64,000 bases of DNA, from positions 744,001 to 808,000 of the forward strand of contig NZ_CP117812.1 of NCBI RefSeq assembly GCF_028728065.1, written 5' to 3'. The translations under genes and the position numbers were made by a program. Under the pieces are notes generated by a model. The model did no database searches and had not been told where the DNA came from. It saw only the letters and a list, made by a program, of their open reading frames with translations. This document shows, one piece after another, positions 23,797-33,554 of the stretch. This DNA comes from Lentisphaera profundi. Its GTDB lineage: Bacteria; Verrucomicrobiota; Lentisphaeria; Lentisphaerales; Lentisphaeraceae. The stretch's first letter is position 1; each line of letters opens with the position of its first letter.

Positions 23797-23831
23797 AAAA
23801 TCGCAGGCTTTGAGTCTGCGGTTTTTTTTTA
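23797..23831 (+). terminator. Intrinsic terminator after the unknown membrane-protein pair
   Basis: Stem CGCAG / CTGCG extended by A-T pairs, with a 9-base interior (GCTTTGAGT) and a run of nine T. It precedes the FadL-like gene start by 15 bases. Confidence 0.75.
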
Positions 23832-23845
23832 TCAAATGGTGTAAA

Positions 23846-25021
23846 ATGAAAAATATTTTTTATGCGGGAGTGATGATTTTTTTATCGGGCTCACTGTATG
23901 CAACAGTTGCTTTGTCTACGGGCACAAATCAAGCTGCTCTAGCAGGTGGTGGTGTGGCAGCACCCCAAGATTCCACATGGGTAAAATTAAATCCTGCAGC
24001 AATTGTGGGGATGGGCAATCGAGTCGACCTTAGTCTCGAGTACTTACGTCCACAAAATGAAGTTAAGATGGGCGGGGGCGGTCTTCCCAATGCAATAGAG
24101 AGTGAAATTGATGATACGGGGAACTTGTTTTTCCCCCATTTCTCTATGGTCGAACAGTTGGATAGTAAATCAGCATATGGTATAGCTTTGTTTGTTAATA
24201 GTGGCTATTCCTCTGATTATTCAGACTCCCGTTCCACTCCGGGTCAATTTGGGAATTACGATCGTAAATTAGAATACAATTCATATAAATTATCACTTGT
24301 TTACGCACACGAATTTAATAATGGTTGGCGTGTCGGTTTTGGCCCTAATTTGAGCTACGCACGAGTACGAACCGATATGCTAGCAACTGACGCGCCTCTC
24401 CGTCAAACTTCTGGCGATAATGAATGGGATGATAGTTTTGGTGCGGGCTTTCAGTTAGCCGTACATCGTCAGTGGGATCGCTTTGCTTTCGGTATGTCCT
24501 ATACATCTCGTGTGTGGCATTCAGAATTCGAGAAATATGATGATATCACATCTCACCCCTTAGATATGCCTAATATATTGCAGACGGGTATAGCCTTCAA
24601 GATAAAAGAAGATTTGACATGGACTTTTGATTGGCAGTATTTGAATTGGAGTTCTGTTAGTGCCTCGGGTGATAATGTGACAGATGGAGGTTTTGGATGG
24701 AGCAATCATAATATTTTCAAAACAGGCCTAATTTGGGAAGCTAATGAGCAGTGGACACTAAGAGGAGGTTATTCATGGGGAGAAGCTCCTATAGATAGTG
24801 AAGCAGCGTTTTCAAATGTTTTTGCTCCGATTATTATTGAGCATTATGCTTCCTGTGGTTTTTCCTATAGACTAGATGAGGAATGGGAAATTGGAGCAGC
24901 TTATATACATGGATTTGAGAATACTGTGACGGATAATGGAAGACAGATCCCTGCAGCAGAAGGAACCGAGGTTACTTCGTCGGTTGATATCGTTAGTGTA
25001 GGTTTAACTTATTACTTTTAA
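23846..25021 (+). CDS. FadL/OmpP1-family outer-membrane transport protein
   Basis: 391 residues with an N-terminal signal (MKNIFYAGVMIFLSGSLYA) and the FadL hallmark just after it: an alanine-rich hatch with GTNQAALAGGGVAAPQDSTWVKLNPAA, then a 14-stranded-barrel-like pattern of alternating residues ending in a C-terminal aromatic (LTYYF). Members import hydrophobic compounds such as long-chain fatty acids or aromatic hydrocarbons. The start chosen (23846) avoids a 12-residue upstream extension that overlaps the terminator. It stands 86 bases before purB, with no obvious shared function. Confidence 0.85.
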   Translation: MKNIFYAGVMIFLSGSLYATVALSTGTNQAALAGGGVAAPQDSTWVKLNPAAIVGMGNRVDLSLEYLRPQNEVKMGGGGLPNAIESEIDDTGNLFFPHFSMVEQLDSKSAYGIALFVNSGYSSDYSDSRSTPGQFGNYDRKLEYNSYKLSLVYAHEFNNGWRVGFGPNLSYARVRTDMLATDAPLRQTSGDNEWDDSFGAGFQLAVHRQWDRFAFGMSYTSRVWHSEFEKYDDITSHPLDMPNILQTGIAFKIKEDLTWTFDWQYLNWSSVSASGDNVTDGGFGWSNHNIFKTGLIWEANEQWTLRGGYSWGEAPIDSEAAFSNVFAPIIIEHYASCGFSYRLDEEWEIGAAYIHGFENTVTDNGRQIPAAEGTEVTSSVDIVSVGLTYYF

Positions 25022-27677: not shown

Positions 27678-27695
27678 AAAAGTGACAAAAGTGAC
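27678..27695 (+). promoter_or_regulatory. Tandem AAAAGTGAC operator repeats, unit 1
   Basis: Two exact adjacent copies of the nine-base repeat. They lie 10 bases before the -35-like TTGCGA at 27706. The same arrangement appears before the two following paralogues, which points to a shared activator or repressor. Confidence 0.65.
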
Positions 27696-27705
27696 AAATC
27701 AGAGC

Positions 27706-27734
27706 TTGCGAGATTTTTGTTTCTAGTTTAGTTT
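27706..27734 (+). promoter_or_regulatory. Predicted promoter of toroid unit 1
   Basis: TTGCGA (27706-27711), 17-base spacer, TAGTTT (27729-27734). The spacing is exactly 17 in all three units and the two elements are conserved in them. The -10 is a poor match to TATAAT, so an activator, presumably via the upstream repeats, may be needed. Confidence 0.5.
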
Positions 27735-27769
27735 AGATAAAATTTAATTAATCAAACTAAGAGAACTTT

Positions 27770-29413
27770 ATGTCTGATCAAGAAATACCGGAAGATCCGT
27801 TTGGAATCTTAAGCCCGGAAGAATTGATGGAAATTCAGGCGACTTACCGAAAGCAAAAACTCAAAGAGAATTTGATCGGACCTGTTATTTCTACCTGTAT
27901 GCACGTACTACTTATCTTTGGAGCTTCCTTTTTTACAGGTGAAACTAAAGAAGCCAATGCACAAGTAGAAGTAACCCAGAAAGCGGAAGAATTAGTAGAA
28001 GAGCCCCCGCCACCCCCACCACCCCCGCCACCTCCACCAGAGCCGGAATTGGTGACTGAGACGGATACAGTGGATCCAGAAGTTACCGAGACAGTAGAAG
28101 TAGAAGATTTATCTGCGGAAATTGAAGAAGTAAGTGATGAACCACCTGCTGCAGAAATCATGGATGATGTCGAAATGATGTCTGATGTAAAACCCTCAAC
28201 ATCTCCTTTAACGTCAGCAAAAATGTTTAGTGCGCGTTCACCAAATGCAAAAGCAACTGCCTTACGTAAGTATGGTGGATCTAAAGCGGCTCAACAGACT
28301 TTATTAAAAGCCTTGGATTGGCTTGCTAAAAATCAGAAACCAGATGGCTCTTGGGGTAATAGTGGGGTGACAGGCTTGGCTTTACTCGCTTATTTAGCTC
28401 ATGGTGAAACACCTAAGTCACAGCGTTATGGTAAAACAGTAGGTAAGGCCATTCAGTGGCTCTGTAGTAAAAGTCCTGGAGCAAACCTCGTTTATGCACC
28501 GAAATTTGATGACAAAGTTCGTATTGCTGGTATAGAGCAAGTAGCAGAAGAGGCCTTAGGCTTTTATGCAGCAGGCCCTGCAACAGGAACTGGAGATGTA
28601 AAAGTGTCTCATGGTTATCCCCATGCTATTAAAGTTTATGCTTTAGCGGAAGCTTACACCATGACCGGTAACTATAGTATAGAGCGTCCTCTTAAGGCTT
28701 TTGCAAAAATACTTATTAAGGGCCAGAAAAATGAAGGCGATTTTGACTATAACTATAAAAAAGGTCCACGTTGGGATAATTCGATTTCCTTTTGGAATTA
28801 TCAAGCTTTAAAAGCTTTGAAATCAACTGGTCTTGATTTTGATGGTCTTGACGCAGCAGTGGTAAAATCGGTGGCGCGAATGAAAGTTATGGCTAAATAT
28901 CACTTTCCTTATTCTGGTACATCGGCACCTAAAGGCGGCCGTGGTAATGCAGGTTTAGCGGCTGCAGGTGCTTTATGTCTTCAACTTTTAGGTGAGGCGA
29001 AAGGCGATTCTAATGTTGATAATATAATGGATCGTATACAAAAAGAAGGTATCGATCAATTAGGCTATGAAGAGTATAAGGGCCGGCATGGTATGTATGC
29101 TTGGTATTATCAAACTTTTGCTATGTTTCAGCATGGAGGCAAGCACTGGAGGGAATGGAATGCTAAATTTCAAAAAGTCCTAATGAAAAATCAACATCCA
29201 GAAGGCTATTGGGCACATGAGCTTTCTTGGGGTGGCGGAAAGAACTTAGGCAGTAAAGCTTACCAGACTTCTTTGTCGGCATTAATGCTCACAGTTTATT
29301 ATCGCTACCTGCCATCAACATCAGTGAAAAAATCATCAACTAAAAAATCTTCAACGCAGAAAAAGAAAGAAAAAGAAGCAAGTAGTGGTGAAGAGACCAT
29401 AGATATCTTCTAA
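27770..29413 (+). CDS. TonB-like membrane anchor fused to an alpha/alpha-toroid (squalene-cyclase-fold) domain, copy 1
   Basis: 547 residues. Cytoplasmic N-terminus (1-34), one membrane helix (~36-55, TCMHVLLIFGASFF), a linker with twelve consecutive prolines (79-90) and an acidic stretch, then a toroid-like region from ~170. In it, QW-type motifs appear: QKPDGSWG (189-196) and HPEGYW near the end, as in prenyltransferase/squalene-cyclase folds. The protonating DXDD motif is not seen, so enzymatic cyclisation is not supported. The topology resembles TonB with a globular periplasmic head. Residues 1-171 equal those of copy 2. Own promoter and terminator. Function unknown. Confidence 0.8.
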   Translation: MSDQEIPEDPFGILSPEELMEIQATYRKQKLKENLIGPVISTCMHVLLIFGASFFTGETKEANAQVEVTQKAEELVEEPPPPPPPPPPPPEPELVTETDTVDPEVTETVEVEDLSAEIEEVSDEPPAAEIMDDVEMMSDVKPSTSPLTSAKMFSARSPNAKATALRKYGGSKAAQQTLLKALDWLAKNQKPDGSWGNSGVTGLALLAYLAHGETPKSQRYGKTVGKAIQWLCSKSPGANLVYAPKFDDKVRIAGIEQVAEEALGFYAAGPATGTGDVKVSHGYPHAIKVYALAEAYTMTGNYSIERPLKAFAKILIKGQKNEGDFDYNYKKGPRWDNSISFWNYQALKALKSTGLDFDGLDAAVVKSVARMKVMAKYHFPYSGTSAPKGGRGNAGLAAAGALCLQLLGEAKGDSNVDNIMDRIQKEGIDQLGYEEYKGRHGMYAWYYQTFAMFQHGGKHWREWNAKFQKVLMKNQHPEGYWAHELSWGGGKNLGSKAYQTSLSALMLTVYYRYLPSTSVKKSSTKKSSTQKKKEKEASSGEETIDIF

Positions 29414-29433
29414 TTAGATCTAAGTCTGATACC

Positions 29434-29467
29434 AAAAAGCCTTTGCGAATCCCGCAAAGGCTTTTTT
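29434..29467 (+). terminator. Terminator of toroid unit 1
   Basis: AAAAAGCCTTTGCG / CGCAAAGGCTTTTT (14 bp) with a 5-base loop. Nearly the same hairpin follows copies 2 and 3. Confidence 0.85.
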
Positions 29468-29480
29468 GTAAGTTCGCAAT

Positions 29481-29498
29481 AAAAGTGACAAAAGTGAC
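29481..29498 (+). promoter_or_regulatory. Tandem AAAAGTGAC operator repeats, unit 2
   Basis: Two exact adjacent copies, 10 bases before TTGCGG at 29509, sitting just behind the terminator of copy 1. Confidence 0.65.
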
Positions 29499-29508
29499 AA
29501 GCCAGGGC

Positions 29509-29537
29509 TTGCGGGAGTTTTGTTTCTAGTTTAGTTT
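29509..29537 (+). promoter_or_regulatory. Predicted promoter of toroid unit 2
   Basis: TTGCGG (29509-29514), 17-base spacer, TAGTTT (29532-29537). Virtually identical to unit 1 from the operator to the start codon. Confidence 0.5.
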
Positions 29538-29572
29538 AGATAAAATTTAATTAATCAAACTAAGAGAACTTT

Positions 29573-31213
29573 ATGTCTGATCAAGAAATACCGGAAGATC
29601 CGTTTGGAATCTTAAGCCCGGAAGAATTGATGGAGATTCAGGCGACTTACCGAAAGCAAAAACTCAAAGAGAATTTGATCGGCCCTGTAATTTCTACATG
29701 TATGCACGTACTACTTATTTTTGGAGCTTCCTTTTTTACAGGTGAAACGAAAGAAGCCAATGCACAAGTAGAAGTAACCCAGAAAGCGGAAGAATTAGTA
29801 GAAGAGCCGCCACCACCCCCGCCGCCGCCACCACCCCCGCCAGAACCGGAATTGGTGACTGAGACGGATACAGTAGATCCAGAAGTTACAGAGACAGTAG
29901 AAGTAGAAGATTTATCTGCGGAAATTGAAGAAGTAAGTGATGAGCCACCTGCGGCAGAAATCATGGATGATGTCGAAATGATGTCTGATGTAAAACCTTC
30001 GACATCTCCTTTAACATCAGCAAAAATGTTTAGTGCGCGTTCACCAAATGCAAAAGCTACAGCCTTACGCAAGTATGGTGGATCTCAAGCTGCTCAGCAA
30101 AGTTTACTGAAAGCCTTGGATTGGCTTGCTAAAAACCAAAGTCCTGATGGTTCTTGGGGCGGTAGTGGAGTGACAGGTTTGGCTTTATTGGCGTATTTAG
30201 CTCATGGTGAAACACCAAAATCCCAGCGTTATGGTAAAACGGTAGGTAAAGCAATTCAGTGGCTCTGTAGTAAAAGTCCTGGTGCTAACCTCGTTTATTC
30301 TCCTAAACTGAATGATAAAGTTCGTATAGCAGGAATTGAGCAAGTGACTCAGGAAGCCTTAGGCTTTTATGCTGCTGGACCTGCATCAGGAACTGGAGAT
30401 GTGAAAGTTTCTCATGGTTATCCCCATGCGATTAAAGTTTACGCTTTAGCCGAAGCTTATACAATGACAGGTAATTATAGTATAGAACGTCCACTCAAGG
30501 CATTTGCAAAATTACTTATTAAAGGCCAAAAAAATGAAGGCGATTTTGACTATAACTACAAAAAAGGTCCTCGTTGGGATAACTCAATCGCATTTTGGAA
30601 TTACCAAGCTTTAAAAGCTTTGAAATCTACGGGTCTTGATTTTGATGGCCTTGACGCGGCAGTTGAAAAATCGATTCCTCGAATGAAGCTTATGGCTAAA
30701 TTTCAGTTTCCCTATTCTGGGACATCGACTCCAAAAGGTGGTCGAGGAAATGCAGGTTTAGCTGCTGCGGGAGCACTCTGTCTTCAGCTTTTAGGAGCAG
30801 CAAAAGGCGATAGTAATGTTGATAAAATTATGGATCGCATTCAAAAAGAAGGAGTGGCTCAATTAGATTGGGATAATTCTCCTAAGAAATGGGTGATGTA
30901 TGCTTGGTATTACCAAACTTTTGCAATGTTTCAACATGGTGGTAAGCATTGGAGAGATTGGAATGCTAAATTTCAAAAAGTACTCATGAAAAATCAGCAT
31001 CCAGAAGGTTATTGGGCACATGAATTAGCATGGTCTGGAGGTAAGAATACTCAAGGGAAAGCGTATCAAACAGCTTTAGCATCATTGATGTTAACGGTTT
31101 ATTATCGTTACTTACCTTCTACATCCGTTAAAAAATCAGCTACGAAATCAGCCACGCAGAAAAAGAAAGAAAAAGAAGCTAGTAGTGGTGAAGAGACTAT
31201 AGATATCTTCTAG
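29573..31213 (+). CDS. TonB-like anchor fused to alpha/alpha-toroid domain, copy 2
   Basis: 546 residues, same architecture as copy 1. The first 171 residues are identical to copy 1, including the twelve-proline run, but the proline codons differ between the two. That indicates selection on the protein, not just recent copying. The C-terminal third (PRMKLMAKFQFPYSGTSTP onward, WVMYAWYYQTFAM, WAHELAWSGGK) instead agrees with copy 3. The gene is therefore a mosaic. QSPDGSWGGSGV (189-200) and HPEGYW are its QW-like motifs. It has its own operator, promoter and terminator. Confidence 0.8.
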   Translation: MSDQEIPEDPFGILSPEELMEIQATYRKQKLKENLIGPVISTCMHVLLIFGASFFTGETKEANAQVEVTQKAEELVEEPPPPPPPPPPPPEPELVTETDTVDPEVTETVEVEDLSAEIEEVSDEPPAAEIMDDVEMMSDVKPSTSPLTSAKMFSARSPNAKATALRKYGGSQAAQQSLLKALDWLAKNQSPDGSWGGSGVTGLALLAYLAHGETPKSQRYGKTVGKAIQWLCSKSPGANLVYSPKLNDKVRIAGIEQVTQEALGFYAAGPASGTGDVKVSHGYPHAIKVYALAEAYTMTGNYSIERPLKAFAKLLIKGQKNEGDFDYNYKKGPRWDNSIAFWNYQALKALKSTGLDFDGLDAAVEKSIPRMKLMAKFQFPYSGTSTPKGGRGNAGLAAAGALCLQLLGAAKGDSNVDKIMDRIQKEGVAQLDWDNSPKKWVMYAWYYQTFAMFQHGGKHWRDWNAKFQKVLMKNQHPEGYWAHELAWSGGKNTQGKAYQTALASLMLTVYYRYLPSTSVKKSATKSATQKKKEKEASSGEETIDIF

Positions 31214-31232
31214 AAAAACTTATGTCTTAGAT

Positions 31233-31266
31233 AAAAAGCCTTTGCGGATTTCGCAAAGGCTTTTTT
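31233..31266 (+). terminator. Terminator of toroid unit 2
   Basis: AAAAAGCCTTTGCG / CGCAAAGGCTTTTT with a short loop, matching the unit 1 hairpin. Confidence 0.85.
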
Positions 31267-31301
31267 GTGTTTAAGCCTCTCCTATAAATGAAATATATGA
31301 C

Positions 31302-31328
31302 AAAAGTGACAAAAGTGACAAAAGTGAC
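31302..31328 (+). promoter_or_regulatory. Tandem AAAAGTGAC operator repeats, unit 3
   Basis: Three exact contiguous copies plus a half copy (TGAC at 31298). Nine bases separate them from TTGCGA at 31338. The extra copy makes this the strongest of the three arrays. Confidence 0.65.
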
Positions 31329-31337
31329 AAAAAAGGC

Positions 31338-31366
31338 TTGCGAAGTATGAGGTCTTAACTTAGGGT
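31338..31366 (+). promoter_or_regulatory. Predicted promoter of toroid unit 3
   Basis: TTGCGA (31338-31343), 17-base spacer, TAGGGT (31361-31366). The spacer sequence has diverged from units 1 and 2, while the spacing and both elements stay, which supports their function. Confidence 0.5.
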
Positions 31367-31396
31367 ATATCAAGCTAAGTAAAAAAGGAGCTTGAT

Positions 31397-33022
31397 ATGT
31401 CTGAGCAAAAACATCCAGAAGATTTGTATAGATTCATGAATTCAGAGGAATTATTAGAGCTTCAGGCGCATTACCAAAGGCAACAGCTCAAAGAAAATCT
31501 GATTGGGCCAGTCATTTCTACCTGTATGCACGTTTTACTAATTTTCGCAGCTACATTTTATAAGAGTGAGCCTCGACAAATAAATCCAAAAGTGGAAGTC
31601 ACTCGTACCATCGATAGAGTCTTAAAAGAGCCAGAGCCGATCCCCATCCCAAAAAAGCTTGAAGTGCCCGAAATCGAGAATGATCTTATTGAAAACCTTG
31701 AGCTACCGGTAGCCACAGATATAGAAGCGTTTTTACCCGTATTAAGAGAAGATTTTGCAGGGCCACCATCAGTAGAGATCATGGAGAAAGCGGAAGGGAT
31801 AGAGCCTATGAAGCCTTCTACGTCATCAGTGCAATCAGAAACGATGTCGAAGAGAAGATCATTTAAAGATAGACTTAATGCGATGCAAAAATATAAAGCT
31901 ACAGAAGCTTCTCAGGAAAGTTTATTAAGAGGCTTAGATTGGCTTGCGAAAAACCAAAGCCCTAATGGTTCTTGGGGTGGTAGTGGAGTAACGGGCTTGG
32001 CTTTATTGGCTTTTCTCGCACATGGTGAAACGCCGAAATCACAGCGTTATGGCAAAACTGTAAGTAAAGCGATTAAGTGGACCTGTAGTGAAAGTCCTGG
32101 TGCTAATCTTATTTCTCCATCCAAGTTAGATACCAAAACTCGTAGAGTCGGTATTGAACAAGTAAGCAAGGAAGTTCTTGGTTTTTATGCGGGAGGTCCA
32201 GTGGCGGGTACTGGTGATGTAGCGATTTCTCATGGCTATCCTCATGCGATAAAAGTTTACGCTCTAGCCGAAGCTTATACAATGACAGATAATTATAGCA
32301 TAGTAGCGCCATTAAAAGCATTTGCGAAAATACTTATTAATGGGCAGAAAGAAGAAGGTGATTTTGACTATAATTATAAGCAGGGACCACGTTGGGATAA
32401 TTCGATTTCTTTTTGGAATTACCAAGCGTTAAAAGCTTTGAAATCGACGAAGCTTGATATTGAGGGCCTTGATCAGGCTATAGAGAGAGCGATCCCACGG
32501 ATGAAACTGATGGCAAAATTTCAATTTCCCTATTCGGGGACATCAACTCCCCGAAGTGGTAGAGGAAATGCAGGGCTAGCGGCCGCAGGTGCACTTTGTC
32601 TTCAACTTTTAGGCGCAGCCAAAGGAGATAGTCATGTTGATAAAATCATGGATCGCATTCACGAAGAAGGCCTTGTTCACTTAGATTGGGTGAACGCTCC
32701 TAAAAAATGGGTGATGTATGCTTGGTATTACCAAACCTTTGCGATGTTTCAGCATGGTGGTAAGCATTGGAGAGACTGGAATGCTAAATTTCAAAAAGTA
32801 CTGATGAAGAATCAGCATTTAGAAGGTTATTGGGCACATGAATTAGCATGGTCAGGAGGCAAAGGTACTCAGGGGAAAGCCTATCAAACGGCAATGGCCT
32901 CTTTGATGCTTACAGTTTATTACCGTTATTCGCCCCCAAGTGCAGAGAAGAAGTCGGCTGTGAAACCAGGGAAGTTGGAAAAAAATACTGGCATGGAAGA
33001 TGAAACAATAGATATATTCTAA
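31397..33022 (+). CDS. TonB-like anchor fused to alpha/alpha-toroid domain, copy 3 (diverged linker)
   Basis: 541 residues. The membrane segment (TCMHVLLIFAATFY) and the toroid are kept, with QSPNGSWGGSGV and HLEGYW. The linker is changed: no polyproline run but a looser EPEPIPIPKKLEVPE, and the acidic part differs. The ribosome-binding site (AAAGGAG) is much stronger than in copies 1 and 2. The C-terminal third is nearly that of copy 2. Own terminator, shared with convergent sodN. Function unknown; a different partner from copies 1 and 2 is inferred from the changed linker. Confidence 0.78.
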   Translation: MSEQKHPEDLYRFMNSEELLELQAHYQRQQLKENLIGPVISTCMHVLLIFAATFYKSEPRQINPKVEVTRTIDRVLKEPEPIPIPKKLEVPEIENDLIENLELPVATDIEAFLPVLREDFAGPPSVEIMEKAEGIEPMKPSTSSVQSETMSKRRSFKDRLNAMQKYKATEASQESLLRGLDWLAKNQSPNGSWGGSGVTGLALLAFLAHGETPKSQRYGKTVSKAIKWTCSESPGANLISPSKLDTKTRRVGIEQVSKEVLGFYAGGPVAGTGDVAISHGYPHAIKVYALAEAYTMTDNYSIVAPLKAFAKILINGQKEEGDFDYNYKQGPRWDNSISFWNYQALKALKSTKLDIEGLDQAIERAIPRMKLMAKFQFPYSGTSTPRSGRGNAGLAAAGALCLQLLGAAKGDSHVDKIMDRIHEEGLVHLDWVNAPKKWVMYAWYYQTFAMFQHGGKHWRDWNAKFQKVLMKNQHLEGYWAHELAWSGGKGTQGKAYQTAMASLMLTVYYRYSPPSAEKKSAVKPGKLEKNTGMEDETIDIF

Positions 33023-33043
33023 TGTAACTTTTAATCGGAACAC

Positions 33044-33078
33044 AAAAAAGCCTTTGCGGATTCCGCAAAGGCTTTTTT
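33044..33078. terminator. Bidirectional terminator between toroid unit 3 and sodN
   Basis: AAAAAAGCCTTTGCGG / CCGCAAAGGCTTTTTT, 16 bp with a 3-base loop and A/T flanks on both sides; it can stop both convergent transcripts. Confidence 0.85.
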
Positions 33079-33089
33079 GTGTAGTCTAA

Positions 33090-33554
33090 TTAATGACTGT
33101 GTTCGAGGTGAACGTGGTAGAATGGGACGAGATCCATAATCGCTTTTGTGAGTGCAGTGGCGTATTTGCCGTCAGCATTTTGCTTGGCTTTCATAGCGGC
33201 AACGATAACGCTGTGATGTTTTACTAAGCGATCGGTGTAATCTTTTTGACTAGACTTCACTCGTTGAGTAAGGAAGTAATCGCTAATCGTAGTGATTACT
33301 TTTTGAGCATGAGCCTCTTTGTTGACAACCCAACGAGTCATTTGATTGGCCGATTGAGCGTCAGTTTTACCCGCTAATTCATTCATCATTTTAGTAGCTT
33401 TTTCAACTGTTTTTGCATCTTCAAGCATTTGGATTATACGTGCACCATCGTCATAAATTCCGCAGGGGACTTCGCAGTGAGCTTGAGCCGTTTGGCTTAG
33501 AGTTACAGTGGTAAAAGCAATAATGCCTGCCGTGAGTAGTTTTTTGACTAACAT
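33090..33554 (-). CDS. sodN: Nickel-containing superoxide dismutase with N-terminal export signal
   Basis: 154 residues. Residues 26-34 read HCEVPCGIY, the Ni-hook of NiSOD (consensus H-C-x-x-P-C-G-x-Y): nickel is held by the N-terminal amine and His1, Cys2 and Cys6 of the mature enzyme. Residues 1-25 form a typical Sec signal (lysines, hydrophobic core, then AQA), so cleavage after A25 would expose exactly that histidine. The remainder is the four-helix bundle. In well-studied cases a short pro-peptide is removed by SodX; none is seen here. It removes superoxide, here probably in the periplasm. A ribosome-binding site (AGGAG) fits this ATG. Confidence 0.93.
   Translation of the reverse strand: MLVKKLLTAGIIAFTTVTLSQTAQAHCEVPCGIYDDGARIIQMLEDAKTVEKATKMMNELAGKTDAQSANQMTRWVVNKEAHAQKVITTISDYFLTQRVKSSQKDYTDRLVKHHSVIVAAMKAKQNADGKYATALTKAIMDLVPFYHVHLEHSH

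Follow-up and report, generated by a model that had tools for sequence, protein, structure and literature searches.

The 64-kb window analysed here (the whole stretch of DNA under study, G000:C2:744001-808000) comes from the 5.46-Mb, two-contig genome of Lentisphaera profundi and carries three neighbouring paralogous open reading frames (ORFs) on the + strand, encoding 547, 546 and 541 aa. This agrees with an earlier sequence-only reading, which had described three paralogues of 541-547 residues. Protein identity is 92% between copies 1 and 2 and 69% between copies 2 and 3. With a probability of roughly 75%, we consider these proteins to be force transducers of the TonB/TolA kind, driven by the proton motive force (PMF) and equipped with a new C-terminal head, an alpha/alpha toroid according to the structural model. 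The features of the three units are as follows (window coordinates).

27678..27698, +: putative operator of copy 1, 9-bp tandem repeat AAAAGTGAC x2.3
27770..29413, +: toroid transducer gene, copy 1 (547 aa)
27878..27934, +: copy 1 membrane helix with GPxxSxxxH (residues 37-45; alignment, AlphaFold2)
28241..29314, +: copy 1 toroid head (residues ~158-515; AlphaFold2, Foldseek)
29387..29410, +: copy 1 C-terminal tail, GEETIDIF
29434..29468, +: terminator hairpin, copy 1
29481..29500, +: putative operator of copy 2, tandem repeat AAAAGTGAC x2.2
29573..31213, +: toroid transducer gene, copy 2 (546 aa), the one used for modelling
29681..29737, +: copy 2 membrane helix with GPVISTCMH (residues 37-45)
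29744..30022, +: copy 2 proline-rich disordered linker (residues 58-150; AlphaFold2)
29768..29782, +: copy 2 D-box-like strand VEVTQ (residues 66-70), which alternates but does not match the D-box pattern in full as published
30044..31117, +: copy 2 toroid head (residues 158-515; AlphaFold2, Foldseek)
31187..31210, +: copy 2 C-terminal tail, GEETIDIF
31233..31265, +: terminator hairpin, copy 2
31298..31332, +: putative operator of copy 3, tandem repeat AAAAGTGAC x3.9 (nearly four units)
31397..33022, +: toroid transducer gene, copy 3 (541 aa)
31505..31561, +: copy 3 membrane helix with GPxxSxxxH
31862..32935, +: copy 3 toroid head (aligned to copy 2)
32996..33019, +: copy 3 C-terminal tail, EDETIDIF
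33044..33079, +: terminator hairpin, copy 3

Membrane helix and the ExbB-ExbD-ExbD operon

Scanning 84,980 genomes yielded 230 relatives, 80 of which were kept. The motif GPxxSxxxH was found in the membrane helix of all 30 aligned relatives (29-92% identity to the query), where G37, P38, S41 and H45 showed zero entropy (n = 30) and neighbouring helix positions reached 2.5-2.8 bits. By motif, S41 and H45 of copy 2 correspond to S16 and H20 of TonB. In cryo-electron microscopy structures, the Ser-x3-His pair of TonB/TolA, whose His is indispensable, touches Ser/Trp residues that are conserved in ExbB/TolQ (PMC12215075). SxxxH was kept in 40 of 45 ExbD-adjacent toroids and was also retained in Lentisphaeraceae toroids after their dispersal. 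Additionally, a strand of alternating hydrophobic and hydrophilic residues follows the helix in 53 of 98 sequences, compared with 20 after shuffling (max 32). It lies nearly always 22 or 23 residues after the His, about the position of the TonB D-box (offset 25 in E. coli, counted from the residue numbers in PMC10907165).

Surveying the genes that flank homologues for exbB/exbD, as the sequence-only reading had suggested, placed the toroid gene at the end of an ExbB-ExbD-ExbD operon in relatives. About 30 loci from Lentisphaeria and Kiritimatiellae had the gene order TPR - c7 - ExbB - ExbD - ExbD - toroid, and the same layout occurred among members from the rest of the phylum. All genes are on one strand, the gaps are mostly 13-173 bp, the toroid gene is last and nothing is conserved 3' of it. 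The TPR protein has 900-1500 aa; c7 has about 250 aa and is predicted to consist of an SH3-like barrel and TPR helices, and the search for a fold match to c7 gave generic TPR proteins only (best E 0.001). Ser62 and Pro211 are retained in the operonic ExbB. Meanwhile, the source genome has an orthologous operon on its other contig (L030:1317-6767) from which the toroid gene is absent, and its ExbB (G000:C1:1782146-1782883) matches operonic ExbB at E = 4e-78, suggesting that the motor acts in trans and that the toroids moved and multiplied. A canonical TonB system was rejected as the partner: the genome's TonB_C gene and its TonB_2-type, TolA-like gene each belong to a further ExbBD cluster, a second and a third one, separate from the toroid-linked operon.

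The predicted coupling to such a motor is well supported by sequence and synteny. The large head had been judged unusual for energy coupling; this judgement was too cautious, given the invariant SxxxH and the homologues' own ExbB-ExbD-ExbD-toroid operon, which together make energy coupling the best-supported part of the proposal. Moreover, the toroid co-occurs with one ExbB subfamily, counted as one member per genome, both in 40 relatives (both 23, toroid only 2, ExbB only 0, neither 15; p = 3e-9) and in 241 genomes of the phylum (both 90, toroid only 27, ExbB only 9, neither 115; p = 1e-30), with p-values that are inflated by phylogenetic relatedness.

Besides this inflation, several observations weigh against a TonB-like motor connection. 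As had been noted from the sequence, exbB/exbD are not next to the three genes, and none were found within the 64-kb window; 27 genomes of the phylum have a toroid and no ExbB of the toroid-linked subfamily at the threshold used. The Trp of E. coli ExbB that partners the Ser/His pair is Ala in the source-genome ExbB, and relatives that keep a Trp have it at +5 from the conserved Ser, not +4. The SHLS motif is incomplete: Leu occupies His+7 in only 56 of 94 sequences, and the terminal Ser is not retained, Ser not being among the common residues at His+11. In its strict form, the D-box pattern is rare, at 17 of 98 sequences (7 expected). Finally, the toroids of genus g54 and of G203 lack both SxxxH and an adjacent ExbD, suggesting that some members do something else. 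In g54 (L167, L168, L169 and L172), whose genomes are single contigs of 2.7-3.2 Mb, the toroid genes stand in tandem.

Toroid head, C-terminal tail and alternative explanations

The AlphaFold2 model of copy 2, based on the alignment of 30 relatives, comprises a helix (16-54), a disordered region (58-150) and a toroid (158-232 and 282-515), mostly with a predicted local distance difference test (pLDDT) of 80-97. It agrees with the layout proposed from the sequence (cytoplasmic tail, one membrane helix, long linker and toroid) and supports a predicted alpha/alpha toroid as the head, structure prediction having been named as the check that could refute it. In a Foldseek search against the PDB, the top match was AprG, a sugar enzyme with a toroid (E = 6e-6), followed by squalene-hopene cyclases, whose QW repeats were also detected in the head by profile search; the terpene-cyclase-like fold with QW-type motifs was thereby borne out. 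Consistent with the claim that no DXDD site is evident, DxDD occurred in only 9 of 127 sequences, DDxxD in 2 and a thioester motif in none of the toroid sequences surveyed. The Pfam/NCBIfam matches of the three proteins fell far under the cut-offs (Pfam 18.5 bits vs 26.2). The TonB/TolA C-terminal fold is absent, the toroid taking its place, and no vWA match was found in the three window proteins.

The inner toroid helices, set apart from the outer ones by alternation, are more conserved (1.03 vs 1.78 bits, p = 2e-7), and their invariant residues include Y290, E294, Q345, K348, Y446 and Y447. This pattern of conservation suggests that a ligand or partner may sit in the cavity. The C-terminal tails are acidic and then alternating hydrophobic in 97 of 109 distinct tails, compared with 17 after shuffling (for example, EETIDIF, EEGLDLID, DDDLGLDL and DDVVVDVI). 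A secreted toroid of the source genome without a membrane anchor (L025:6165-7166, G000:C2) ends in EETIDIF, as copies 1 and 2 do. The tail is likely a docking peptide that would act by beta-strand addition.

The fold shared with squalene-hopene cyclase and AprG, together with the active-site-like invariance of the six inner-helix residues, could also be read as the mark of a membrane-anchored periplasmic enzyme (a terpene cyclase, a toroid enzyme acting on sugars, or a comparable one) with an anchor that only looks TonB-like. We consider this unlikely, since the catalytic motifs are nearly or wholly missing, the family scores are far below the cut-offs, and neither the invariant Ser and His of the helix nor the place in the ExbBD operon would be explained; terpene cyclase or thioester activity was rejected on the motifs. 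The dispersed Lentisphaera copies and the one genus with tandem toroids, no Ser/His motif and no adjacent ExbD would also suit an envelope tether or scaffold, in which toroids attach to one another or to the wall and their adjacency to the motor operon is purely historical. However, the strong co-occurrence with one ExbB subfamily and the SxxxH kept after dispersal in Lentisphaeraceae make such a scaffold quite improbable.

A narrower form of the transducer proposal, in which the proteins serve polysaccharide uptake specifically at sulfatase loci, draws on copies that adjoin sulfatases, GH95 or PSD/DUF1552 pairs. It appears very doubtful, since sulfatases number 4.7 per 100 kb near toroids vs 7.4 in controls, and PSD/DUF1552 are only about twofold more frequent, with controls taken from other genomes. 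The sulfatase neighbourhood that had been suggested for homologues was not enriched over the 20 control regions, and the link to sulfatase or polysaccharide loci was rejected. Pairs of PSD/DUF1588-1592 and DUF1552 genes lie directly beside dispersed toroids on the same strand in L100, L101, L109, L110 and L066. Prepilin neighbours made no case either (16 of 32 toroid loci vs 9 of 20 controls); five tandem prepilin-like (N_methyl) genes adjoin a toroid gene at L074:8778-12418.

Gene copies and putative regulatory elements

Residues 1-165 are identical between copies 1 and 2 despite 24 synonymous differences, whereas 44 residues differ beyond residue 165. The motor end thus seems to be held constant while the heads diverge, the pattern that a common motor end with diverging heads would predict; partial gene conversion could have contributed to the identity. 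The source genome has four dispersed toroid copies, the fourth paralogue (C2:458226-459791) lacking the array described below. Many copies occur in G004 and G005, and sister species have two genes at the place where the source genome has three.

Each gene had been described as an operator-promoter-gene-terminator cassette. The gene, the hairpin terminator and the operator, a perfect 9-bp tandem AAAAGTGAC array 5' of each gene (also represented as GTGACAAAAGTGACA), were recovered; the promoter is unconfirmed, since no sigma-70-like match was found at the expected place. With at most one mismatch, the array occurs across the 5.46 Mb only at the three window genes and at one further site (one mismatch), 46 bp upstream of a secreted 368-aa toroid gene (L026:5746-6852, G000:C1), which points to a small toroid regulon. 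Two sister species have RTGACAAAARTGACA 5' of their orthologous genes, and it was found nowhere else among 219 loci. Being confined genome-wide to toroid genes and kept in sister species, the array is not due to chance, and as a putative operator it would regulate the toroid genes. A GCAAAGGC hairpin and T run follow each gene (fold z-scores of -7.7, -5.2 and -7.6 for copies 1, 2 and 3).

The third gene upstream of the toroids encodes a FadL/OmpP1-type outer-membrane protein (window 23810-25021), found at the same place in two sister species; it is a possible candidate for the partner of the toroids. A nickel superoxide dismutase gene (33090-33554, -) lies directly downstream in convergent orientation. 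Elsewhere in the genome, a membrane protein with vWA and YfbK_C domains (anti-sigma/vWA/YfbK; L023:4983-7505, G000:C2, -), whose gene neighbours an ECF-sigma-like one, contains the linker motif of the toroids, DEPPAAE...KPSTSPLxSxKxFSARS, with 61% identity over the linker. This sharing of the linker within the genus is possibly a trace of head swapping.

Proposed mechanism and comparison with known transducers

In the proposed transducer, S41 and H45 would dock on the side of the ExbB pentamer, and the short strand just outside the membrane would be taken by ExbD. The proline-rich linker would span the periplasm, and the toroid and beta-strand-like tail may hold a partner in the outer membrane, in the wall or free in the periplasm, on which the motor would pull; the outer-membrane or cell-wall partner suggested in the sequence-only reading is thus possible. 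The motor would be the ExbB-ExbD-ExbD operon, acting in trans here, whereas in most of the phylum the operon brings a toroid gene of its own; in Lentisphaera, one motor may serve several toroids, of which three would have an operator to themselves. By extension, these proteins probably represent a further, phylum-wide class of PMF-driven periplasmic transducer in Verrucomicrobiota, including Lentisphaeria and Kiritimatiellia, with a toroid gripping head, its own six-gene operon and a beta-strand docking tail; Lentisphaeraceae would have one motor and multiplied heads (about two dozen in one marine metagenome-assembled genome).

Few known transducers bring energy to the outer membrane: TonB, TolA and, since 2025, the vWA proteins. 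If a toroid head does occupy the same motor slot throughout the phylum, such motors would take interchangeable heads. This would provide a defined motor-transducer pair that can be tested in species available in culture (Lentisphaera marina and Oligosphaera ethanolica) and may account for transport or envelope work beyond TonB receptors in these bacteria.

A 2025 study (Mol Biol Evol; PMC12204202) described, for Planctomycetes-Verrucomicrobia-Chlamydiae (PVC) bacteria, vWA-headed transducers that carry an SHLS motif and are encoded at the same operon position, and its text does not mention toroid, terpene, cyclase or prenyl. Neither a toroid-headed transducer nor ExbD paired with a prenyltransferase toroid was found in the open-access papers searched, a set that leaves out most subscription journals and preprints. 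Hence, the kind, a PMF-driven transducer, is known, and the head and the phylum-wide family appear to be new. The toroid proteins share with the vWA-headed transducers the SxxxH helix, the disordered linker, a big non-TonB head and, in relatives though not at the window locus, a gene position after TPR, tolQ-like and two tolR-like genes, but their head is an alpha/alpha toroid instead of vWA. With TonB/TolA they share the Ser-x3-His docking pair, in about half the members a D-box-like post-membrane strand, the proline-rich linker and, in the operon of relatives, a gene following exbB-exbD; unlike TonB/TolA, they lack the C-terminal fold and the last Ser of SHLS, and their operon has two different ExbD genes and extra TPR and SH3/TPR genes. 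The toroid fold and QxxxGxW repeats recall squalene-hopene cyclases (including the single-toroid 8pak/8paj) and AprG, from which the toroid proteins differ in having no DxDD, a single membrane anchor, a long periplasmic linker and scores below the family cut-offs.

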